NCBI RefSeq assembly: GCF_015476235.1
Contig: NZ_CP064338.1
Span: forward strand, 1,178,001 to 1,242,000
DNA: 64,000 nucleotides
Source: Caldimonas thermodepolymerans
Lineage (GTDB): Bacteria > Pseudomonadota > Gammaproteobacteria > Burkholderiales > Burkholderiaceae_C
Direction: 5' to 3'
Shown here: piece by piece, positions 5,680-32,983 of the stretch
Layout: each line of letters begins with the position of its first letter
Position numbering within the stretch: the first letter of the stretch is position 1
The notes under the pieces: model-generated
What the model was told of the DNA's origin: nothing
Database searches by the model: none
The model's input: the letters and a program-made list of their open reading frames with translations, nothing else
Made by a program: the position numbers and the translations under genes

Positions 5680-6162
5680 TCAGCCGCGCGGGTCGAGCGT
5701 GCCGGCCTTCAGCTCGGGCACGTAGGCCTTGGCGCCGTCCCAGATCGGCAGGGGCTCCAGCTTGGGCCGGATCGCGCCGTACATCCATCCGCTGTAGGCC
5801 AGCAGCAGCACGCCGTTGAGGAACAGTTCCTGCGGGCCGGTGAACAGCTGGCGCGGCATTTCGGGGCCGCCGACGATGAAGGTGTTCAGCCAGAAGATGT
5901 TGACGGTGGCCGGGAATTCCAGGATCAGGCCGAGCAGCGGGAAGCGGTTGAAGAACAGCATCGCGCCGGTGACGATTTCCAGGTACTTGATGGCCTGGTA
6001 GAGGTAGATGTTGGCGTTGGCCTGGACCCATTCGCCCCCGATGCCGGGAATCTCCGGCACGTAGCCGGTCATGGCGTAGCGGATGCCGGAAAACAGCAGG
6101 TGCGCGCCGAAGTAGAACCTTATCCAGTGGATGACGTAATACCAAGTTGACCCACGGGTCAT
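5680..6162 (-). CDS. DoxX-like membrane protein
   Basis: 160 residues with about four membrane helices. The segment NRFPLLGLILEFPATVNIFWLNTF resembles the conserved central part of DoxX/DoxD-like proteins, which sit in the inner membrane and are linked loosely to redox or stress functions. The ATG at 6162 follows an AGGAG site. A long leader with two hairpins lies upstream (see 6163-6650). No catalytic residues can be named. The family call is moderate and the function is unknown. Confidence 0.65.
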   Translation of the reverse strand: MTRGSTWYYVIHWIRFYFGAHLLFSGIRYAMTGYVPEIPGIGGEWVQANANIYLYQAIKYLEIVTGAMLFFNRFPLLGLILEFPATVNIFWLNTFIVGGPEMPRQLFTGPQELFLNGVLLLAYSGWMYGAIRPKLEPLPIWDGAKAYVPELKAGTLDPRG

Positions 6163-22621: not shown

Positions 22622-23950
22622 TCAGACCAGCGCGAGCGACAGCGCCGGGAACAGCGCCACCAGCACCAGCACCAGCAGCATCGCGGCCACGTAGGGCAGG
22701 GAGCCGGCGAAGATCGATTCCACCGACACCGCGGGATCGTTCAGGGTGGACTTCACCGTGAACACCGAGATGCCGAACGGCGGGGTCAGCAGGCCCATCT
22801 CCACCGCCAGCACGGTCAGCACGCCGAACTGGATCAGGTTGAAGCCGAGGTCGGTGGCGATCGGCACCGCCACCGGGGTCATGATCAGCAGGATGGAGCT
22901 GGAATCCAGGATCATGCCCAGGAACAGCAGGATCACGACGTAGATCGCGAGGAACCCGTACGGCCCGAGCCCGGCGTCCTGCACCAGCGCGCTGATCGCC
23001 TCGGGAATGCCCGCCACCGACATCATGCGGCTGTAGAAGCCGGCCGCGATCAGCAGGATCAGGATGGTCACCGAGACGCTGCCGGTCTCGTGCAGCACGC
23101 GCCACATCCGGCCTTCGCCCAGGCTGCGCCGCGCCAGCGCCACCAGCAGCGCGCCGAAGGCGCCGATGCCGCCGGCTTCGGTGGGCGTGAAGAAGCCGGT
23201 GTACAGGCCGCCCAGCACCAGCACCACCAGCGCGACGATGGGCACCAGCTTGCGTGCGATCTCTCCGCTGCCCAGGGCAGGCACCAGGCGGCGCTGCATG
23301 TCGGCCGCCTCGCGCCGCCGCAGGTCGTAGACCAGCTGCGGGCGGAACGTGGCCAGCGCGACGATGGTGACGACGAACATCGCCGCGAGCAGGAAGCCCG
23401 GGATGATGCCGGCGATGAACAGCGTGCCGATCGACTGCTCGGCGAGCACGCCGTAGATGATCATCAGCAGGCTCGGCGGGATCATCATGCCCAGCACCGA
23501 ACTGCCGGCCACGGTACCCGCCGCGAAGGCGGTGCGGTAGCCGTGGCGCACCATCTCCGGCACCGCCACGCGGGTGAACACCGCGGCCGAGGCGATCGAC
23601 ACGCCGGTGACCGCCGCGAACACCGTGTTGGCCGCGACAGTGGCCACGCCCAGTCCGCCGCGCAGCCGGCGCAGCAGCGACTCGGCCACGTCGAAGGTGT
23701 CCTTGCCGACGTTCGAGACCGACACCAGCAGGCCCATCAACACGAACAGCGGGATGGTCGCGAAGATGTAGTCGGCCACGCCGTTGTAGGCCGACAGGTA
23801 CAGCAGCCGCATGGCCATCTGCACGTCCTCGCGCACCAGCCAGATGCCGATGAAGCCGATGCCGATCAGCGCGACGGCGATGTGGATGCCCAGCAGCACC
23901 AGCACGACCAGCGCGCCGATCAGCAGCGCACCCAGGCTCAGGTCGCTCAT
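22622..23950 (-). CDS. dctM: TRAP transporter large permease (DctM)
   Basis: Membrane subunit that moves solute into the cell with Na+ or H+; 442 residues, about 12 helices. Family landmarks: LLFLGMILDSSSILLIMTPVAVPI near the C-terminus, and TVAGSSVLGMMIPPSLLMIIYGVL mid-protein. The ATG at 23950 follows AGGGAGA and overlaps the small permease stop by 4 bp (23947-23950). It is the last gene of the tetR-dctP-dctQ-dctM run. Confidence 0.93.
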   Translation of the reverse strand: MSDLSLGALLIGALVVLVLLGIHIAVALIGIGFIGIWLVREDVQMAMRLLYLSAYNGVADYIFATIPLFVLMGLLVSVSNVGKDTFDVAESLLRRLRGGLGVATVAANTVFAAVTGVSIASAAVFTRVAVPEMVRHGYRTAFAAGTVAGSSVLGMMIPPSLLMIIYGVLAEQSIGTLFIAGIIPGFLLAAMFVVTIVALATFRPQLVYDLRRREAADMQRRLVPALGSGEIARKLVPIVALVVLVLGGLYTGFFTPTEAGGIGAFGALLVALARRSLGEGRMWRVLHETGSVSVTILILLIAAGFYSRMMSVAGIPEAISALVQDAGLGPYGFLAIYVVILLFLGMILDSSSILLIMTPVAVPIATDLGFNLIQFGVLTVLAVEMGLLTPPFGISVFTVKSTLNDPAVSVESIFAGSLPYVAAMLLVLVLVALFPALSLALV

Positions 23951-24480
23951 GCGGGATCTCCCTGCTCGAACTCGCCGCGCCACAGCGCCGGCAGCTGCAG
24001 CGCATATGCGAGCGCCGCGATCAGCGCGCCCAGCACGATGAGGGCGCGAAACGGCCAGGCGGCCACGGTGTAGACGCCCTGCACGCCGATGAACTCATGC
24101 TCCTGCCACGACTGCGCGAGCTCCGGCCAGGCCATGAAGGCCAGCGCCAGGAACAGCAGCGCGCCCAGCGCCGCGTTGCCCACCTCCAGCACGCGCAGGG
24201 CGGTGCGCGAGCGCGCGCCGATCAGGCGCAGCAGGAAGTCGCTGCGCGTCATGCGGCCGGAGCAGATCGCCGCGGCCAGCTGCAGGAACACGATGGAAGC
24301 GACCGAGCGAGCCGCGAACTCGGCCACGCCGGTGATCGGGCGGTCCAGGAAGTTGCGCCCGGCCACGTCGGCCACCACGACCAGCATCAGCACGAAGATC
24401 CAGACCGTGCCGATCGCGGCCAGCACGCGCGCCACGCGCTGCAGCGGGTGGGAGCGGCCCGGATGGGAAGACTCTTGCAC
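23947..24480 (-). CDS. dctQ: TRAP transporter small permease (DctQ)
   Basis: Four-helix inner-membrane subunit, 177 residues, which stabilises DctM and takes part in docking the binding protein. It shows the family pattern: first helix VWIFVLMLVVVADVAGRNFLDRPITGVAEFA, then VASIVFLQLAAAI. The gene lies between the binding protein (56 bp upstream) and the large permease (4-bp overlap). Confidence 0.9.
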   Translation of the reverse strand: MQESSHPGRSHPLQRVARVLAAIGTVWIFVLMLVVVADVAGRNFLDRPITGVAEFAARSVASIVFLQLAAAICSGRMTRSDFLLRLIGARSRTALRVLEVGNAALGALLFLALAFMAWPELAQSWQEHEFIGVQGVYTVAAWPFRALIVLGALIAALAYALQLPALWRGEFEQGDPA

Positions 24481-24536: not shown

Positions 24537-25607
24537 TCACAGGTTCTCGCGGTCCCAGTCGCGCAGCGGCTTCACGCCACGGGCGCGCAGTTCGTCGAAG
24601 TAGGCCTTGAGCACCGCCTTGCCGTTCTCGCCGGTGGCCTGCAGCCAGGGCTGCACGATGTTGGGCAGGCTCTTGACCCACTTCTGCTTCTCCTCGGCAG
24701 ACAGGTCCGAGAGCTGCAGGCCGGCAGCCTTCATGGTCTCCATCGCGGCGTTGGCGACCTTGGTCACGTGCTCGCCGTGCGCCTTGGAGGTGGCGCGGCC
24801 GGCCTGGACGAAGGCGTCCTGCACTTCCTTGGGCAGGCGCTCGAAGAACCGCTTGTTGACTGCCACCGCGCCGAAGTACATCGAGCCGATGTCGATGCGC
24901 GTCAGGTGCTTGGCGACCTCGTAGACGCGTGCCGGGCCGATGCCGCTGGCGAACGACAGCGCGCCCTGGGTCACGCCGGTCTGGATGTTGGTGTAGTAGG
25001 TGGTCAGCGCGCCGTCGACCGGGGTCGCGCCGGTGCCGTTGAGCCAGTTCGCCGAGGTGCCCGGGGCGTTGATCTTCTTGTTCTGGAGATCGGCCATCGT
25101 GCGGATCGGGAACGTGGCGTAGATGTCGTAGCTGTCGGTGATCAGCGACGACAGCGGCACCATGTTCTGCGCGGCCCAGCTGTCACGCAGTGCCGGCACC
25201 GTCGTGTTGAGCTTGTCGAAGATCTCGATCAGCAGCTCGTGGTTGGTGGTGGCGAACGGCGTGAAGTAGGTGACGTTCTGCAGCGGCATCGCCGAGTTCT
25301 CCCACAGCGTGCCGACCATGCCGACGTCGACGATGCCGTCCTTCACCGCGGCGCGGGTGTCGGTGAACTTGTACAGCGTGCCGCCGTAGGCCTCGCGCCA
25401 GCGGATCTCGTACTTGCCGCCGGCTGCCTTGAGGATGCGGTCCACCTCGGGCTGGAACACCTCCTTCATCGCGTAGGCCCAGATGTTGGTGGTCGGGTGG
25501 CTCGAGCCGATGTTGACGTTGATGCGTTGCTGGGCCAGGGCGGACGTGGCGGCCAGCCCCAGGCCCAGGGCCAGCAGGCAGTGCTTGGCGCGGTGCGTGA
25601 GTTTCAT
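24537..25607 (-). CDS. dctP: TRAP transporter periplasmic solute-binding protein (DctP family)
   Basis: Periplasmic receptor, 356 residues, with signal peptide MKLTHRAKHCLLALGLGLAATSALA. DctP-type fold with RAAVKDGIVDVGMVG and the hinge FPIRTMADLQNKKI. In the family the following residue in the K-x-R-x-P motif is the near-invariant Arg that clamps a carboxylate of the ligand; here the motif reads KKINAPG with Asn180 (codon at 25068-25070). All else looks intact. That hints at a ligand without the usual carboxylate contact, or a shifted clamp. It is encoded 75 bp after the TetR gene and is probably controlled by it. Confidence 0.9.
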   Translation of the reverse strand: MKLTHRAKHCLLALGLGLAATSALAQQRINVNIGSSHPTTNIWAYAMKEVFQPEVDRILKAAGGKYEIRWREAYGGTLYKFTDTRAAVKDGIVDVGMVGTLWENSAMPLQNVTYFTPFATTNHELLIEIFDKLNTTVPALRDSWAAQNMVPLSSLITDSYDIYATFPIRTMADLQNKKINAPGTSANWLNGTGATPVDGALTTYYTNIQTGVTQGALSFASGIGPARVYEVAKHLTRIDIGSMYFGAVAVNKRFFERLPKEVQDAFVQAGRATSKAHGEHVTKVANAAMETMKAAGLQLSDLSAEEKQKWVKSLPNIVQPWLQATGENGKAVLKAYFDELRARGVKPLRDWDRENL

Positions 25608-25682: not shown

Positions 25683-26444
25683 CTACGCTTTGGTTCTTTT
25701 CCGGGATGACGATCCGGTCGCGGTGCGCGGCGCGCGTGCCGGCCGTTCGTCGGCGAACAGCTCGCGGCTGCTCGTCAGGTAGCTGCGCACGCGGTCGCGC
25801 ACCAGGGCTTCGTCGCAGGTCTCGTGCATCGCCTCGCTGTGCACGTCCTGGCCGTAGATCCAGCGCCGGATCGCGATGTAGTACATGCCGCCGTGCAGTC
25901 CCATCAGCAGCTCCAGCTCGCGTTCGCTGGGGCGTGCACGCGAGGTGCTGCCGCGGAAGCGCCGCGTCTCGCGGATCAGGCGCGGGAACAGGCGGTCGCG
26001 CAGCATCGCGAAGAAGCGGTCGGTGATGGTGTGGTCCATCAGGCCCGAGAACATCAGGATGCGCACGAACTCGCGTGACAGCCCGTTGTTCACGTAGTCC
26101 GTGTAGAACGCGGTGAGCTTGTCCTCGATGTCCATGCGCGGGTCGTCGAGCACCTGCTCCCAGCTGTCGCGCCAGCGGCCTTCGAACACCTCCACGTAGA
26201 CCCGGTCGATCAGCGCCTGCTTGGTGGGGAAGTAGTGGTAGAGCAGGGCGTGCGTGACGCCGATGCTCTTGGCCAGGTCGCGCAGCTGCCCGCCCAGCCC
26301 GTTTTCCGCGAAGAACTGGATCGCGCCGTCGACGATCTGGCGCTCGCGCTCCGACACGCTCAGACGCCGGCGCGCAGGGGCGGGCGCCGCCTCGGCCTTG
26401 CGGCGGCCGGGCTTCGAGGGTTCAGGGTTTTTCAGGATGGGCAC
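25683..26444 (-). CDS. TetR/AcrR family transcriptional regulator
   Basis: About 253 residues. The N-terminal helix-turn-helix spans RQIVDGAIQFFAENGLGGQLRDLAKSIGVTHALLYHYFPTKQALIDRVY; the C-terminal ligand domain is unclassified, and the tail is basic (SSSRKRTKA). GTG at 26444 is the likeliest start; further in-frame ATGs at 26477 and 26504 would place coding sequence inside the operator dyads. It is transcribed away from the molybdenum hydroxylase genes and towards dctPQM. The shared upstream region carries two similar dyads (26449-26495), so it is the probable regulator of both operons and of itself. The effector is probably the substrate or product of the oxidase, which is inference. Confidence 0.85.
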   Translation of the reverse strand: MPILKNPEPSKPGRRKAEAAPAPARRRLSVSERERQIVDGAIQFFAENGLGGQLRDLAKSIGVTHALLYHYFPTKQALIDRVYVEVFEGRWRDSWEQVLDDPRMDIEDKLTAFYTDYVNNGLSREFVRILMFSGLMDHTITDRFFAMLRDRLFPRLIRETRRFRGSTSRARPSERELELLMGLHGGMYYIAIRRWIYGQDVHSEAMHETCDEALVRDRVRSYLTSSRELFADERPARAPRTATGSSSRKRTKA

Positions 26445-26448
26445 TCTA

Positions 26449-26495
26449 TTTACCAACGGGTCAATGAGCCATAGCATTGTTGAACGATTGGTAAA
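26449..26495. promoter_or_regulatory. Paired operator dyads between tetR and the Mo-hydroxylase operon
   Basis: Two related 16-bp elements in inverted orientation: TTTACCAACGGGTCAA at 26449-26464, and TTGAACGATTGGTAAA at 26480-26495, whose complement is TTTACCAATCGTTCAA. Thirteen of 16 positions agree, and the outer 8 bp (TTTACCAA/TTGGTAAA) are a perfect inverted repeat. Each element is itself a weak dyad. Centres lie 31 bp apart, close to three helical turns, so two dimers would sit on one face. The position, right between the divergent starts, is ideal for a TetR repressor. Confidence 0.7.
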
Positions 26496-26530
26496 CAAGT
26501 GCACCCGTGAAAACCCGGGTGCTGCACCGG

Positions 26531-27193
26531 ATGGAACTGAACGGAGACGTCCTCGTCGCGGCCCCGCGCGACCAGGTCTGGAATGCCCTCAACGACACGG
26601 CGGTGCTGGCGCGCTGCATCCCCGGCTGCGAGGAAATGGAGGCGCTCGGCGAGACCGAGCGCCGTGCCCGGGTGGCTGTGAAGGTGGGGCCGGTGCGCGC
26701 GCGCTTCACCGGCCACGTGCGCCTGCTCGACGTACGCCCCGGCGAGGGATGCACGCTGCAGTTCGAGGGCTCCGGCGGCGCGGCCGGCATGGCGCGCGGC
26801 CAGTCCACGCTGCAGCTGTCGGACGACCCCGAAGGCACGCGGGTGAGCTACACCGCGCAGGCCACGGTGGGCGGCAAGCTCGGGCAGGTGGGCGGCCGGC
26901 TGATCGATGCGGCTGCGATGCAGATGGCCGACCAGTTCTTCCAGGCGCTGCGCCGCGAGTTCCAGCCGCCGGCGGCCGAACTGGCGGCACCGGCTCCTGC
27001 CGTGGACGCCGCGCCCGCGGCGCCCGAGGCCGCCGCCTTGCCCGCGCCGGGCCCTGCGGCCGCCGCGGTGCCGGCCGCCTTGGCGGCGCCGTCCACGACG
27101 CCGGCCTCCGAAGGGGTGCGCGTGCTGTGGTTCGCCATGGGCGTGCTGTCCACCGCCATCGGCGTGTGGCTGGGCGCGACGCTGTTCGGCTGA
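26531..27193 (+). CDS. coxG: CoxG-like SRPBCC protein with C-terminal membrane anchor
   Basis: 220 residues. Residues 1-150 form a carbon monoxide dehydrogenase subunit G-type SRPBCC fold (LNDTAVLARCIPGCEEMEALG, then LSYTAQATVGGKLGQVGGRLID-like pattern). A long Ala/Pro linker follows, then one membrane helix VLWFAMGVLSTAIGVWLGATLFG. Known CoxG anchors the oxidase to the membrane, and the same job is likely here. No clear ribosome site marks the start; ATG 26531 is used, and GTG 26507 in frame is the alternative. First gene of the oxidase operon. Confidence 0.82.
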   Translation: MELNGDVLVAAPRDQVWNALNDTAVLARCIPGCEEMEALGETERRARVAVKVGPVRARFTGHVRLLDVRPGEGCTLQFEGSGGAAGMARGQSTLQLSDDPEGTRVSYTAQATVGGKLGQVGGRLIDAAAMQMADQFFQALRREFQPPAAELAAPAPAVDAAPAAPEAAALPAPGPAAAAVPAALAAPSTTPASEGVRVLWFAMGVLSTAIGVWLGATLFG

Positions 27194-27214: not shown

Positions 27215-28081
27215 GTGAAGGCAGCTGCGTTCGACTATGTGAAGGCGGACTCGGTCGCGCAGGTGATCGAGCTGCTGCAGCAGCACGGGGACGACGCGCG
27301 CGTGTTGGCCGGAGGGCAGACCCTGCTGGCCACGCTCAACATGCGCCTGTCCGAGCCGGCGCTGCTGATCGACATCAACGGCCTGGCGGCGCTGCGGGGC
27401 ATCGAGCGGCAGGGCGAGGTGCTGCGCATCGGCGCGCTCGTCACGCATGCGGAGATCGAGCGCAGCGAGCTGGTGGCGCGCCATGCACCGCTCCTGGCCC
27501 AGGCGGCACCGCACATCGCCCACCGGGCGATCCGCAACCGCGGCACCTGGGGCGGATCGCTGGCCTATGCCGACCCGGCCGCCGAATGGCCGGCCTGCCT
27601 GCTCGCGCTGGGCGGCACGGTGGTGGTGCAGGGGCCGGGCGGCGTGCGCCGCATCGCGGCCGACGACTTCTTCCTCGGGCTGTACACCACGGCGCTGGCG
27701 CCGGACGAGATCGTCATCGCCGGCGAGGTGCCCGTGGCCCGCGAAGGCCAGTGGCAGGGCATGACGCAGCTGGCGCGCCGGCACGGCGACTATGCGGTCG
27801 TGGGGCTGGCCGCCACCGCACAGCGCCGCGGCGCGGCGTTGGCCTCGGTGCGGCTGGCCTTCATGGGCGTGGCCGCGACGCCGTGGCGTGCGCGCCGCAC
27901 CGAGGAGCTGCTCGAGGGCCGCGAGCCCGACGACGCGACGCTGGCGATGGCCGCGGCCAGCCTGCGCGCCGAGATCGAGCCGCTGCCCGACCTCACCCAT
28001 TCCAGCGAGACCAAGCGCCACCTGGCCGGCGTGCTGCTGCAGCGCCTGCTGGCCTGTGCGCGCCGCGATTCCGAAGGCTGA
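27215..28081 (+). CDS. Mo-hydroxylase FAD-binding subunit (CoxM type)
   Basis: 288 residues. Medium subunit of the xanthine dehydrogenase/CO dehydrogenase family, passing electrons from the iron-sulfur subunit to FAD. The two FAD loops are visible: LAGGQTLLATLNM near residue 30 and RGTWGGSLAYADPAAEWPA near residue 110. The GTG start at 27215 follows AAGGAGAGG. It lies 21 bp after coxG and 4 bp before the iron-sulfur subunit. Confidence 0.92.
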   Translation: MKAAAFDYVKADSVAQVIELLQQHGDDARVLAGGQTLLATLNMRLSEPALLIDINGLAALRGIERQGEVLRIGALVTHAEIERSELVARHAPLLAQAAPHIAHRAIRNRGTWGGSLAYADPAAEWPACLLALGGTVVVQGPGGVRRIAADDFFLGLYTTALAPDEIVIAGEVPVAREGQWQGMTQLARRHGDYAVVGLAATAQRRGAALASVRLAFMGVAATPWRARRTEELLEGREPDDATLAMAAASLRAEIEPLPDLTHSSETKRHLAGVLLQRLLACARRDSEG

Positions 28082-28085
28082 TTCC

Positions 28086-28571
28086 ATGGCAGACACCCGC
28101 ACCATCCAGGTCACCGTCAACGGGCGCCCGCACCGTTGCCAGGTCGAACCGCGCACGCACCTGGTCGACTTCCTGCGCGACGAGCTCGGCCTCAAGGGCA
28201 GCCACCTGGGCTGCGAGCATGGCGTCTGCGGCGCCTGCACCGTCGAGCTGGACGGCCGCATCGTGCGCGGTTGCCTGACGCTGGCCGTGCAGGCCGACGG
28301 CGCGCAGGTGCAGACCATCGAGGGCGTCAGCGAGTCGGGCGTGATCCGCGACCTGCAGCAGGCCTTCGTCGCGCACAACGCGCTGCAGTGCGGGTTCTGC
28401 ACGCCCGGCATGCTGATGGCGGCCAAGGAACTGGTCGAGACCCGGCCCGAGGCGACGCGCGCCGAGGTGCGCGAATGGATTTCCGGCAATTACTGCCGCT
28501 GCACCGGCTACCACGCCATCGTCGACGCGGTGTGCGACGTGCTGCACCAGCGCAAGGAGGCACGCTCATGA
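28086..28571 (+). CDS. Mo-hydroxylase [2Fe-2S] subunit (CoxS type)
   Basis: 161 residues with both iron-sulfur clusters. The plant-ferredoxin-type cluster uses C43, C48, C51 and C63 (GCEHGVCGACTV, RGC). The second, helical-domain cluster uses C102, C105, C137 and C139 (CGFCTPGM, CRCTGYH). All eight cysteines are present. The gene ends in an ATGA overlap with the large subunit at 28568. Confidence 0.95.
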   Translation: MADTRTIQVTVNGRPHRCQVEPRTHLVDFLRDELGLKGSHLGCEHGVCGACTVELDGRIVRGCLTLAVQADGAQVQTIEGVSESGVIRDLQQAFVAHNALQCGFCTPGMLMAAKELVETRPEATRAEVREWISGNYCRCTGYHAIVDAVCDVLHQRKEARS

Positions 28572-30985
28572 AGCGCGACGTCGTCAACCTGGAGCCCGGG
28601 GTCGAGTCCACGCCGCCGATCGCGCCGGTCACCGAGGACCCGCGCTACATCGGCGCGCGCCTGCCGCGCCACGGCATCGAACGCCTGACGCAGGGGCAGG
28701 GGCAGTACGTCGACGACATCGAGCTGCCGCGCCTGGCGCACGTGGTGTACTGGCGCAGCCCGGTCGCGCACATGCGCATCAAGGGCATCGACGACCGCAT
28801 CGCGCGCTCGATGCCGGGCGTGCTGATGGTGGCCACCGGGCAGGACCTGGCCAAGGTGTGCAAGCCCTGGGTCGCGGTGCTCGGGCACCTGACCGGCATG
28901 AAGTCCGCCCCGCAATACCCGCTGGCGGTGGAGCGCGCCTGCTGGCAGGGCGAGCCGGTGGTCGCGGTGGTGGCCGAGACGCGCGCGCAGGCCGAGGACG
29001 CGCTGCAGCACCTGGTGGTCGACTGGGAGGAACTGCCGCTGACCGTGGAGATGGAGCGCGCGCTGGCCCCGGACGAGCCGGTCATCCATCCCGAGCTGGG
29101 CGACAACGTCTGCTTCAGCCGCCGGCTGGACGTCGGCGAGGTGGACCGCGTGTTCGCCGAGGCCGACGTGGTGGCCGAGACCACCTTCGAGTTCGGCCGC
29201 CACACCGGCGTGACGCTGGAGCCGCGCTCGCAGATCGCGCACTGGCAGCCGGCCGAGCAGCGCCTGACGGTCTACCACTCGTGCCAGGCGCCGCACATGA
29301 TGCAGGACCTGTACGCGCGGCAGTTCGACCTGCCGGCGCACGCGGTACGCGTGATCTGCAAGGACGTCGGCGGCTCGTTCGGCGTGAAGGTGCACGCCTA
29401 CCCGGACGACTTCGCCACCGTCGCGCTGTCCATGCTGCTGGGGCGCCCGGTGAAGTTCGTCGCCGACCGGCTGGAGAGCTTCACCAGCGACATCCACGCG
29501 CGGCACCACCGCGTCAAGGGGCGCATCGCGGTCAACCGCGACGGGGAGATCCTCGGCTTCGAGATCGACGACCTCACCGGCATCGGGCCGTACTCGATGT
29601 TCCCGCGCACCAGCGCGATCGAGGGCAACCAGGTGGTCAACCTGGTCGGCGGGCCTTACCGGCACCAGCACTACCGCGCGCAGCTGCACGTGGTGTTCCA
29701 GAACAAGACGCCCACCTGCCAGTACCGCGGCGTGGGCCACCCGATCGCCTGCGCGGTGACCGAAGGGCTGGTGGACCTGGCCGCGCAGCGCATCGGCATG
29801 GACCCGCTGGAGATCCGCGCGAGGAACGTGATCCCGGACGATGCCTACCCGGCCACCGGCGCCTCGGGGATCAAGCTCGAGGTGCTGTCGCACGAGGCCT
29901 GCCTGCGCAAGCTGCGCGAGATGATGAACTACGACGCGCTGCGCGCCGAGCAGGCGGCGCTGCGCAAGCAGGGCATCTGGCGCGGCATCGGCCTGGCCAC
30001 CGTGATCGAGCTGACCAACCCGAGCGCAGCGTTCTACGGCATCGGCGGCGCGCGCATCGCGTCGCAGGACGGCGCGACCGTGCGGCTCAACCCCGAAGGC
30101 CACGTCACCGTGCTGGTCGGCGTGGGCGAGCAGGGGCAGGGCACCGAGGCGATCTACCGCCAGATCGCGGCCGACGCGGTCGGGGTGGACATCGACCAGG
30201 TGCGCGTGATCACCGGCGACACCGACGTGACGCCCTACGGCGGCGGCACCTGGGCCTCGCGCGGCGCGGGCATCGGCGGCGAGGCGGTGCTGCTGGCCGG
30301 CCAGGCGCTGCGCGGGAACATCCTCAAGACCGCGGCGGTGATCCTGAACCGCGAGGCGGGGCAGCTCGGCCTGCACCGCGGCCAGGTGGTCGACGCCGTC
30401 ACCGGCGAGGCGCTGCTGCCGCTGTCGGAGGTCGGCCGCATCGCCTACTTCCGCACCGACACGCTGCCGCAGGGCTTCACGCCCGAGCTGATGGTCACGC
30501 GCCACTACGCGCAGCGCGACTACCCGTTCATCTTCACCAACGGCGTGCAGGCCTCCTACGTCGAGGTGGACCCGGACACCGGGTTCGTGACGCTGCTCAA
30601 GCACTGGGCGGTGGAGGACTGCGGGCGGGTGCTGAACCCGATGCTGGTCGACGAGCAGATGCGCGGCGCGATCGTGCAGGGCATCGGCGGCGCGCTGTAC
30701 GAGGAGTGCCTCTACGACGAGCAGGGGCAGATGCTCAACGCCAACATGGCCGACTACCTGGTGCCGATGGCCGCCGAGATGCCCGACATCGAGGTCGCCC
30801 ACGTGATGACGCCCACGCGCAGCTCGCGCCTGGGTGCCAAGGGGGCCGGCGAGGCCGGCACCGCGGGGGCGCCGGCGGCCGTGATGAACGCGATCAACGA
30901 CGCGCTGGCCCCGTTCGGTGCGCACGTGCACTCGCAGCCCATCACCCCCGAGAAGATCCTGCGAGCGCTGGGCAAGGTGAAGTGA
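28568..30985 (+). CDS. Mo-hydroxylase large molybdopterin subunit (CoxL family, not CO-type)
   Basis: 805 residues; binds the Mo cofactor and hydroxylates the substrate. Cofactor motifs: KDVGGSFGVK, GEQGQGTEAIYRQIA, and the catalytic Glu762 in KGAGEAGTAG. The active-site loop reads QYRGVG at 385-390. CO dehydrogenase has AYRCSFR with Cys388 holding copper; here residue 388 is Gly, so this is not a CO oxidiser. The RG(A/V)G form occurs in CoxL-like enzymes of mostly unknown substrate. No maturation genes (XdhC/CoxI or MocA type) are in the window, so cofactor insertion must be supplied elsewhere. Confidence 0.92.
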   Translation: MKRDVVNLEPGVESTPPIAPVTEDPRYIGARLPRHGIERLTQGQGQYVDDIELPRLAHVVYWRSPVAHMRIKGIDDRIARSMPGVLMVATGQDLAKVCKPWVAVLGHLTGMKSAPQYPLAVERACWQGEPVVAVVAETRAQAEDALQHLVVDWEELPLTVEMERALAPDEPVIHPELGDNVCFSRRLDVGEVDRVFAEADVVAETTFEFGRHTGVTLEPRSQIAHWQPAEQRLTVYHSCQAPHMMQDLYARQFDLPAHAVRVICKDVGGSFGVKVHAYPDDFATVALSMLLGRPVKFVADRLESFTSDIHARHHRVKGRIAVNRDGEILGFEIDDLTGIGPYSMFPRTSAIEGNQVVNLVGGPYRHQHYRAQLHVVFQNKTPTCQYRGVGHPIACAVTEGLVDLAAQRIGMDPLEIRARNVIPDDAYPATGASGIKLEVLSHEACLRKLREMMNYDALRAEQAALRKQGIWRGIGLATVIELTNPSAAFYGIGGARIASQDGATVRLNPEGHVTVLVGVGEQGQGTEAIYRQIAADAVGVDIDQVRVITGDTDVTPYGGGTWASRGAGIGGEAVLLAGQALRGNILKTAAVILNREAGQLGLHRGQVVDAVTGEALLPLSEVGRIAYFRTDTLPQGFTPELMVTRHYAQRDYPFIFTNGVQASYVEVDPDTGFVTLLKHWAVEDCGRVLNPMLVDEQMRGAIVQGIGGALYEECLYDEQGQMLNANMADYLVPMAAEMPDIEVAHVMTPTRSSRLGAKGAGEAGTAGAPAAVMNAINDALAPFGAHVHSQPITPEKILRALGKVK

Positions 30986-31051
30986 AGGGGGCAGGCCGCG
31001 CCTCGTGCGCCGGCCCGGATGCCGTGGCCGCCCCTGCAAGGGGGCCTGAGC

Positions 31052-31107
31052 GCGTCACGATCGCGTCATGCGACTGACACCGGTGCGTCACACGCGCTGC
31101 CTAGCAT
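31052..31107 (+). promoter_or_regulatory. Pho-box promoter of phoX
   Basis: Four 7-bp repeats start exactly 11 bp apart: GCGTCAC (31052), GCGTCAT (31063), CTGACAC (31074), GCGTCAC (31085). The PhoB consensus is CTGTCAT repeated every 11 bp. TAGCAT at 31102-31107 would be the -10, 10 bp after the last repeat, the normal spacing for a PhoB-activated promoter lacking a -35. Read towards phoX at 31148. Confidence 0.8.
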
Positions 31108-31147
31108 CGGCTGCGCTTGTGAACCACGACACCAGGAGAGTCTGTCC

Positions 31148-32983
31148 ATGTCCCATCTCACCGACCGTGCCCGTGCCGCTGCTGCCGCGGCCCAGGGGCG
31201 TCCCGACCATGTCACCGTGCCCGGCCAGATGTTCGACGAGGTGCTGGCCTCGGCCCGCGTCCGGCGCCGTACGCTGCTGCGCGGCGGGCTCGGCGCATCG
31301 ATGGCGGCGATCTTCGGCGGCGGGCTGCTGAGCGCCTGCGGCGGTGGCGGCGATGACACGCCCGAAACCTCCTACGCGGTCGGGTTCCGCGCGGTGCCGC
31401 CGCAGGTCGGCGACCAAGTCCGGGTGCCCGAGGGCTACACCGTCGACGTGCTGTTCTCGGCGGGCGACGCCGTGCTGGCCGGCGCGACCGGCTATGCCGG
31501 CCCGTTCCTCGGCGCGGCGGAGGCGGAGCAGGTCGCCGGCGGCAACCACGACGGCATGCACTACTACGAGCTGCCCGGGCAGGACCCGAATCGCCGCGGG
31601 CTGCTGGCGATCAACCACGAGCTGCCCGACTTCGGGATCCTCTTTCCCGGCGGCAGCTACGACGCGGCCAGCGCGACCGACGAACAGAAGCTCATCGCGC
31701 TGTCGGCCGTGGGCGTGTCGGTCATTGAGGTCGAGAAGGACGCGGACGGGCACTGGCGCGTCGTCGCGGACTCGCCGTACAACCGCCGCTACACCGGCAA
31801 CACGGTCTACCGCGTCAGCGGCCCCGCCGCCGCGGTCGTCGGCCCCACGGTGGTGGGCACGCTGAACAACTGCTCCAGCGGCCCGACGCCCTGGGGCACC
31901 TACCTCACCTGCGAGGAGACCACCGACAACTACCTCGACCCGACCCAGGCGCCGGAGGGCTACGGCTGGGTGGTCGAGATCGATCCGTACGGCGAGCTGG
32001 ACGGCCTGCCGGTCAAGCGCACCGCGCTGGGCCGCTTCGACCACGAGAACACCGCCTGCCTGCTGGGCCGCGACAACCACCTGGCCTTCTACATGGGCGA
32101 CGACGGCACGCCGGGCTGCATCTACAAGTTCGTGCCCCGTGGCCGCTACGACCCGGGCCGGCGGGCCGCCAATGCCATGTTGCTCGACGAAGGCACGCTG
32201 TACGTCGCGCGGTTCAACGCCGACGGCACGGGCGAGTGGATCGAGCTGGTGCAGGGACGCAACGGGCTGGTGCCTGGCGCGGTCGACCCGGGCAACGTGA
32301 CGCAGGGGGCGCAGGCGCCGGCGACCATCGACTTCCACTCCCAGGCCGACGTGCTCGTCCACACCAAGGCGGCGGCCCGGGTGGCGGGCGGCACGCTGAT
32401 GGACCGGCCCGAATGGATCACGGTGGGGCCGGACGGGCGCATCTACGTGACGCTCACCAACAACGGCGGCCGCCAGGTGACCGACGCGGCCAACCCGCGT
32501 CCGGGCAACCGCCACGGCCACATCATCCGCTGGACCGAGCAGGACGGCTCGCCGCTGGCCACCCGCTTCGAGTGGGAGATCTTCCTGCTCGCCGGCGACC
32601 CGCGGCTGGCCGACGAACACCTGCAGGGCGACATCCAGGGCGACACCTTCTCCAGCCCGGACGGCATCCGCGTCGACCCGCAGGGGCGGCTGTGGGTGCA
32701 GACCGACGCGAGCACCGGCAGCTCGATCACCGGCACCTTCGGCAACAACGCGATGTACTGCATCGACCAGGCCACGCGCGTCTCGCGCCGCTTCCTGGTG
32801 GGGCCCGACGGCTGCGAGATCACCGGGCTGGCCTACACGCCGGACCTGAAGACATTCTTCGTCAACATCCAGCATCCGACCGGTGCCTGGCCGTCCAACC
32901 AGCCGGGGCAGGACCCGGGGCTGCCGCCACGCTCGTCGACCATCGTCGTGCAGCGCAGCGACGGGCGGCCGGTGGGCGCCTGA
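31148..32983 (+). CDS. phoX: PhoX-type alkaline phosphatase
   Basis: 611 residues. Exported Ca2+/Fe3+-dependent phosphatase releasing phosphate from organic esters. Tat-type signal with RRRTLLRGG at 39-47 and a lipobox-like LLSAC with Cys64 followed by CGGGG, so it may be a lipoprotein. Family motifs: AINHELPDFG, WGTYLTCEETTDNY, RFDHENTAC and FSSPDGIRVD. AGGAG precedes the ATG. The Pho box just upstream independently supports a phosphate-starvation role. It stands alone between the oxidase operon and a convergent gene. Confidence 0.9.
   Translation: MSHLTDRARAAAAAAQGRPDHVTVPGQMFDEVLASARVRRRTLLRGGLGASMAAIFGGGLLSACGGGGDDTPETSYAVGFRAVPPQVGDQVRVPEGYTVDVLFSAGDAVLAGATGYAGPFLGAAEAEQVAGGNHDGMHYYELPGQDPNRRGLLAINHELPDFGILFPGGSYDAASATDEQKLIALSAVGVSVIEVEKDADGHWRVVADSPYNRRYTGNTVYRVSGPAAAVVGPTVVGTLNNCSSGPTPWGTYLTCEETTDNYLDPTQAPEGYGWVVEIDPYGELDGLPVKRTALGRFDHENTACLLGRDNHLAFYMGDDGTPGCIYKFVPRGRYDPGRRAANAMLLDEGTLYVARFNADGTGEWIELVQGRNGLVPGAVDPGNVTQGAQAPATIDFHSQADVLVHTKAAARVAGGTLMDRPEWITVGPDGRIYVTLTNNGGRQVTDAANPRPGNRHGHIIRWTEQDGSPLATRFEWEIFLLAGDPRLADEHLQGDIQGDTFSSPDGIRVDPQGRLWVQTDASTGSSITGTFGNNAMYCIDQATRVSRRFLVGPDGCEITGLAYTPDLKTFFVNIQHPTGAWPSNQPGQDPGLPPRSSTIVVQRSDGRPVGA

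Follow-up and report, generated by a model that had tools for sequence, protein, structure and literature searches.

A conserved pair of putative TetR-family operators between divergent tetR and molybdenum hydroxylase genes in Caldimonas thermodepolymerans

The divergent tetR-coxG locus

The window is a 64-kb (64,000-nucleotide) stretch of Caldimonas thermodepolymerans DNA in which a gene for a TetR-family regulator (tetR) and a coxG-like gene diverge from a short intergenic region. Genes for a TRAP transporter follow tetR, and the coxG-like gene is the first of an operon on the opposite strand. Two 16-bp dyads lie between the divergent genes, together with a candidate promoter element and a mirrored outer element. 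The features, in coordinates of the window, are the following:

22622-23983, minus strand: dctM, TRAP transporter, after dctP
23947-24480, minus strand: dctQ, TRAP transporter, after dctP
24537-25607, minus strand: dctP, TRAP solute-binding protein, on the same strand as tetR and 75 bp after it
25683-26444, minus strand: tetR, TetR-family regulator of 253 amino acids, GTG start, Pfam TetR_N (PF00440)
26425-26439, minus strand: CATCCTGAAAAACCC, mirrored left-hand copy of the outer element, inside the opening codons of tetR
26449-26464, plus strand: putative operator 1 (left arm), TTTACCAACGGGTCAA, read as TTTACC AACG GGTCAA, conserved in relatives
26472-26477, plus strand: TAGCAT, candidate -10 element of a coxG promoter
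26480-26495, plus strand: putative operator 2 (right arm), TTGAACGATTGGTAAA, read as TTGAAC GATT GGTAAA, conserved in relatives
26502-26516, plus strand: CACCCGTGAAAACCC, right-hand copy of the outer element, located in the leader of coxG
26531-27193, plus strand: coxG-like gene, first of the divergent operon, Pfam COXG (E = 4.8e-30)
27215-28081, plus strand: coxM-like FAD subunit, Pfam FAD_binding_5 and CO_deh_flav_C
28086-28571, plus strand: coxS-like [2Fe-2S] subunit, Pfam Fer2 and Fer2_2
28568-30985, plus strand: coxL-like molybdopterin subunit, from NCBIfam and PDB comparison

The regulator is predicted to have a TetR fold. Its TetR_N helix-turn-helix domain (PF00440) is recognized at E = 2.8e-11, with 43.4 bits against a cut-off of 24, and the AlphaFold model (pLDDT 90.3) consists of 10 helices in the all-helical, two-domain arrangement of TetR proteins, with block pLDDT values of 60-75 at residues 1-20 and 231-253. 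The PDB fold comparison returned 142 matches at E <= 0.001, the best at E = 9.1e-6; the best 50 of these 142 are TetR-type proteins, with TM scores on query length of 0.42-0.61. No literature on the regulator and a molybdenum hydroxylase operon was found in titles or abstract openings.

The coxG-, coxM-, coxS- and coxL-like genes form a molybdenum hydroxylase operon. The coxL-like subunit lies below the cut-offs of all 13 NCBIfam models that it matches. Aerobic CO dehydrogenase was considered as the target and set aside, as the scores reach only 494 of 950 and 460 of 991 bits of the NCBIfam cut-offs. The best PDB sequence match of the coxL-like subunit is quinoline 2-oxidoreductase (449 bits), followed by a CO dehydrogenase (440 bits), and the subunit falls between quinoline 2-oxidoreductase, CO dehydrogenase, and glyceraldehyde dehydrogenase. 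A gene for a PhoX-type alkaline phosphatase (31019-32983) is found after the cox operon.

The coxG reading frame opens at GTG 26507, and ATG 26531 is its residue 9. Matches to the coxG genes of relatives (n = 73) begin at residue 9 in 40 cases, at residues 6-8 in 22, and earlier in 11 (at residue 1 in three), so that ATG 26531 is favoured as the start. With this start the tetR-coxG gap measures 86 bp, in agreement with the roughly 85 bp of a preliminary description of the locus; with GTG 26507 it would be 62 bp. The GTG start of tetR (26444, minus strand) is 4 bp from operator 1.

The two arms form a single inverted-repeat pair in a repeat search, 81% complementary (13 of 16 positions) with 15 nt between them. 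Their centres, at 26456.5 and 26487.5, are 31 bp apart, which is near three helical turns; the preliminary description had reported the same 16-mers with the same agreement and spacing. Each arm is itself an imperfect dyad of the form TTKACC-N4-GGTMAA, with the left half-sites (TTTACC/GGTCAA) symmetric at five of six positions and the right half-sites (TTGAAC/GGTAAA) at four of six. When the 86-bp region was shuffled with dinucleotides preserved, 18 of 3001 shuffles produced a 16-nt inverted pair agreeing at 13 or more of 16 positions. The inverted pair is modest in one sequence alone and strong once relatives are included.

Conservation among relatives and confinement to the tetR neighbourhood

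Related regions were gathered from a regulator search of public genomes, of which the best 80 of 141 loci were used, and from other genome searches. They comprise 115 loci with a tetR match, with one copy of the window (L135) set aside. A coxG- or coxM-like match lies across the gap in 105 of the 115; the ten loci without such a match (nine and a fragment, L010) were left out, and removal of 15 duplicates left 90 non-redundant regions, in which the next gene is coxG (73 regions) or coxM (17 regions). The motif TTKACCNNNNGGTMAA was built from the two arms of the window before being searched for in the relatives, and a pair was counted at up to four mismatches over 24 fixed positions and at any distance of 18-59 bp.

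The best pair lies at exactly 31 bp in 66 of the 90 regions, at 30 bp in seven, at 29 bp in one, and at other distances in three, and is absent from 13. (An earlier count on narrower stretches, now superseded, gave 65, 6, and 1 regions at 31, 30, and 29 bp, one at 47 bp, and 17 single sites.) Among shuffled regions, 2 of 1800 have any pair at 18-59 bp and none has one at 31 bp. Phylogenetic footprinting of the intergenic regions of relatives had been proposed beforehand in the preliminary description, and the dyads came through it: a 29-31 bp pair stands next to orthologous regulators in 74 of the 90 regions. That the repeat arose by chance in a short gap, as 18 shuffles of the single region might allow, is extremely improbable in view of these 74 regions against 2 of 1800 shuffles; the regions are related rather than independent, but their tree is deep.

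Information is concentrated in the half-sites. In the thinned set of 32 regions with 31-bp spacing (sets of 37 were used for the promoter and the outer element, and of 34 for the pair profile), core positions carry a mean of 1.69 and 1.55 bits at the two sites, against 0.33 and 0.65 bits for the 4-bp dyad centres and 0.55 bits for the remaining spacer. High-information cores with variable centres are the pattern expected for two dyad operators. In the two arms alike, invariant columns occupy symmetric positions. Compensatory change inside the dyads beyond this invariance was not seen, all five measures being below the shuffled mean; the symmetry of the dyads thus rests on invariance.

The protein tree of the regulator contains 98 rows, with L041 left out because its translation runs into a stop after eight residues. 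Ninety rows, made up of 89 of the 90 regions and L067 (on a contig that stops short of cox), group together with support and apart from eight paralogs (100/99), a split that carries the program's warning that long branches meet there. Nine rows are without a cox neighbour: the eight paralogs, in which no site with fewer than three mismatches occurs in the 480 bp scanned, and L067, in which the pair is present at 31 bp. Spacing classes change rarely on the tree, with seven changes for the 31-bp class, three for the 30-bp class (seven loci: L044, L047-L051, and L073), and three for single sites. At the threshold used, 16 of the 90 regions have no 29-31 bp pair. Eleven of these form one clade of Curvibacter, Polaromonas, and relatives (L005, L039, L121, L125-L127, L129-L131, L133, and L134) in which the right site is kept and the left site is unrecognisable, and in two others (L043 and L128) the left site, at 31 bp, is degenerate. 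The sister row of the one-site clade (L118) retains the 31-bp pair, and the clade itself indicates that a single site can suffice in some lineages. One contig in the collection (L082) is labelled Akkermansia muciniphila; because its tetR groups with Limnohabitans on the tree, it is taken to be probably misbinned.

The pair profile (34 thinned rows) was searched against 399 family genomes, which sample a larger group. Filters were strict and the best 14 candidates per genome were scored, so that weak second targets could escape. Profile matches at E <= 0.01 occur in 26 of these genomes. The match is directly beside the tetR ortholog in 21 of them (17 at E < 1e-5; four, G153, G250, G383, and G442, at 2e-4 to 6e-4), and the other five (G212, G239, G271, G350, and G401) have partial matches at E = 8e-4 to 1.8e-3. 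One further partial match, in G216, lies elsewhere (E = 0.006). All matches below E = 1e-5, in 17 genomes, adjoin an orthologous tetR. Counted from the regulator instead, a TetR match at E <= 1e-60 is likewise found in 26 of the 399 genomes and the pair in 21 of them; the remaining five are four one-site forms (G022, G260, G338, and G370) and a missed 30-bp pair (G270, the genome of L044). None of 12 genomes with weaker TetR matches, among them a fragment (G053), has a profile match beside tetR. Eleven of the 34 profile rows come from the scanned genomes and match by construction; the informative part of the scan is the absence of strong matches elsewhere.

The genome of the window shows no enrichment of the single site (20 sites at no more than one mismatch against 19 for a reversed control), and a single-site regulon was rejected on these counts. 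This lack of enrichment fits a regulator with one target yet adds no independent support. From the confinement of profile matches to the tetR neighbourhood, together with the unenriched single site, the regulator appears to be local and to have one target. The 64-kb window holds 40 matches to the operator pattern (up to three mismatches) against 17 expected and a maximum of 33 in 100 shuffles, an excess that may be caused by coding composition; a one-mismatch site at 6147-6162 was taken as chance. In at least 38 of the 90 regions, several of the loci being too short to show it, tetR is followed in the same orientation by a dctP gene (above 60% identity) at a distance of -4 to 108 bp. One control region may therefore set both importer and enzyme.

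A likely coxG promoter, the 31-bp spacing, and the outer element

The hexamer TAGCAT begins 17 bp after TTTACC (26449-26454), the outer half of operator 1. Among the 74 loci with a 29-31 bp pair, TAnnAT occurs exactly 17 bp after the left TTTACC in 54 (23 of 37 thinned loci) and at any other offset of 12-23 bp in at most four (two of 37), so that the coxG promoter seems to be threaded through both sites of the pair. TTTACC is likely the -35 element of this promoter, and operator 2 likely overlaps the coxG transcription start. A consensus promoter scanner with a threshold of 9 of 12 found no match in the window; TTTACC/TAGCAT scores 8, or four of six per hexamer. The conserved -10-like hexamer between the sites belongs to the candidate promoter toward coxG; no conserved -10 was found toward tetR.

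The position of this promoter bears on whether the repeat could act in RNA. A transcript running through both arms could form a hairpin with a 15-nt loop, given their complementarity, and two-sided changes between the arms number 23, where shuffles average 16.4 (32 of 500 shuffles reach that count). The other between-arm measures fall within the shuffles (71 to 165 of 500 as high), the dyad centres vary, and there is no Rfam match. As the likely coxG promoter starts inside the repeat, its transcript would not contain both arms, and an RNA hairpin is very unlikely.

The near-constant 31 bp may come from contact between dimers, from the promoter, or from descent. That promoter and descent hold the spacing, operator 1 having to include the -35 element and operator 2 the coxG start with no contact between dimers, is given slightly better than even chances, and the sharp preference of TAnnAT for the 17-bp offset is the evidence in its favour. 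A repressor can, however, block a start site from slightly shifted positions, and a promoter need not fix the distance to 1 bp. Moreover, the pair persists in every one of the seven 30-bp loci even though TAnnAT is absent there from the 17-bp offset. Their spacing nonetheless remains near three turns, which leans slightly toward contact.

The preliminary description had interpreted the pair as a site of cooperative binding by two TetR dimers. Its operator reading is borne out insofar as two conserved, putative operators lie beside orthologous regulators, whereas cooperation is compatible with spacing on one face of the helix but is not demonstrated by it. Such binding, in which dimers about three turns apart touch or jointly bend the DNA and thereby fix the 31 bp, is considered rather doubtful. 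It is consistent with the narrow range of distances (74 of the 77 regions with a qualifying best pair fall at 29-31 bp) and with the few spacing changes on the tree, and the lower-confidence tails of the regulator model could reach across. Promoter overlap or descent could also explain the spacing, however, and one clade lives with a single site.

Known systems also speak against cooperation. The operators tetO1 and tetO2 of Tn10 are about three turns apart, roughly the geometry found here. According to PMC3037858 and PMC11686294, Tn10 TetR binds the two independently, with no cooperativity. Where TetR-family dimers do cooperate, as in QacR and CprB, two of them share a single site (of 28 and 22 bp, respectively) as a dimer of dimers, and the four cooperative proteins listed in PMC4150764 use sites of 22-32 bp; the CprB dimers sit on opposite sides of the DNA (PMC4150764). 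The system described here resembles QacR and CprB in having a TetR-family regulator with two dimers (here predicted) on control DNA. It differs in that its two 16-bp palindromes are separate, with a distance of 31 bp and lower conservation in between, an arrangement that argues against a dimer of dimers on one continuous site of the QacR/CprB type. By analogy with Tn10 tet, independent binding is taken as the default.

In addition to the operators, an outer element is found on each side of the pair. Its two copies read outward and lie at a nearly fixed distance from the operators on both sides. At a threshold of 8 of 12 consensus positions, 31 of 37 thinned loci have it on both sides, against a shuffled rate of 0.29 per flank; the consensus was derived from the very data used for this count. 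Comparison of flank with flank gives a match of at least 10 of 12 in 8 of 37 loci versus 36 of 740 shuffles, and in 1 of 37 when the reverse complement is not taken. The left copy in L003 is upstream of the only tetR start found and is therefore non-coding, so that coding does not explain the element in that locus. The outer element has no Rfam match. It has eight matches in the genome of the window against one for a reversed control, and no common arrangement is apparent in the unannotated surroundings of the seven other matches.

These features could be combined in a rigid composite switch, with operators on the same face, a threaded coxG promoter, dimers meeting across three turns (perhaps through flexible tails), and an outer element about 20-35 nt into both transcripts that would add RNA- or DNA-level control shared by both operons. 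Such a switch is a long shot. If it existed, it would represent a same-face cooperative mode absent from the TetR members compared here.

A putative switch of known design

The reading favoured here, and held with high confidence, is that the adjacent TetR regulator uses the two arms as tandem operators and would repress coxG-M-S-L and tetR until a ligand binds. In the ligand-free state, one dimer, on operator 1, would cover the -35 element of the coxG promoter, while another, on operator 2, would cover the coxG start site, and both dimers together would close the divergent promoters of coxG-M-S-L and tetR. The downstream TRAP importer would probably be silenced as well, via read-through. The repressor would let go upon binding a small molecule, for which the imported substrate or a product is the likeliest candidate. 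The sites, their symmetry and spacing, their conservation with an orthologous regulator, and the embedded -10-like hexamer are observed directly, and binding, repression, ligand release, and TRAP read-through are inferred from these and from precedent. In PMC3511530, all five tested TetR regulators located less than 200 bp from a divergent neighbour repressed it; from this precedent and the predicted TetR fold, repression of coxG-M-S-L and tetR would be expected.

The closest precedent is the tetO1/tetO2 pair of Tn10. As in Tn10 tetR/tetA, a TetR-family gene is divergent from its target, with two operators (here putative) near the divergent promoters, and the Tn10-like arrangement of two palindromes about three turns apart is present. 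The gap is similarly short, at 81 bp for TetR in PMC3511530 and 86 bp here. In contrast to Tn10 tet, the operator and regulator sequences are different, the putative target is a molybdenum hydroxylase (often with a TRAP importer) rather than an efflux pump, and one clade has lost a site.

Two other regulators share features with the one described here. RutR of Escherichia coli has the consensus TTGACCAnnTGGTCAA, which would be the same dyad type. Its palindromic box of about 16 bp serves several targets (PMC10891134); the regulator here likewise belongs to the TetR family and has a palindrome of about 16 bp but, unlike RutR, appears to have one target. Likeness to RutR in the helix-turn-helix is weak (PRK15008, E = 2.7e-5; 3loc, E = 2.9e-4), and the scores, 24.1 of 230 bits (PRK15008) and 20.6 of 368 bits (TIGR03613), are far below the cut-offs of the RutR family. 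The target of XdhR of Streptomyces is xanthine dehydrogenase. XdhR is a TetR regulator 188 bp from its neighbour in PMC3511530, and the likeness to it, that of a TetR regulator less than 200 bp from a neighbouring gene, is one of gene arrangement.

The pair is thus very probably a genuine on/off switch, built along ordinary lines that are already known, and the general picture of TetR regulation is unchanged by it. The locus yields a defined putative operator, a likely single target, and a set of natural spacing variants (31, 30, and 29 bp, and one-site forms), and this set could show under which conditions two repressor sites are held in phase during evolution. It could also help to find the inducer, and hence the substrate of the enzyme.
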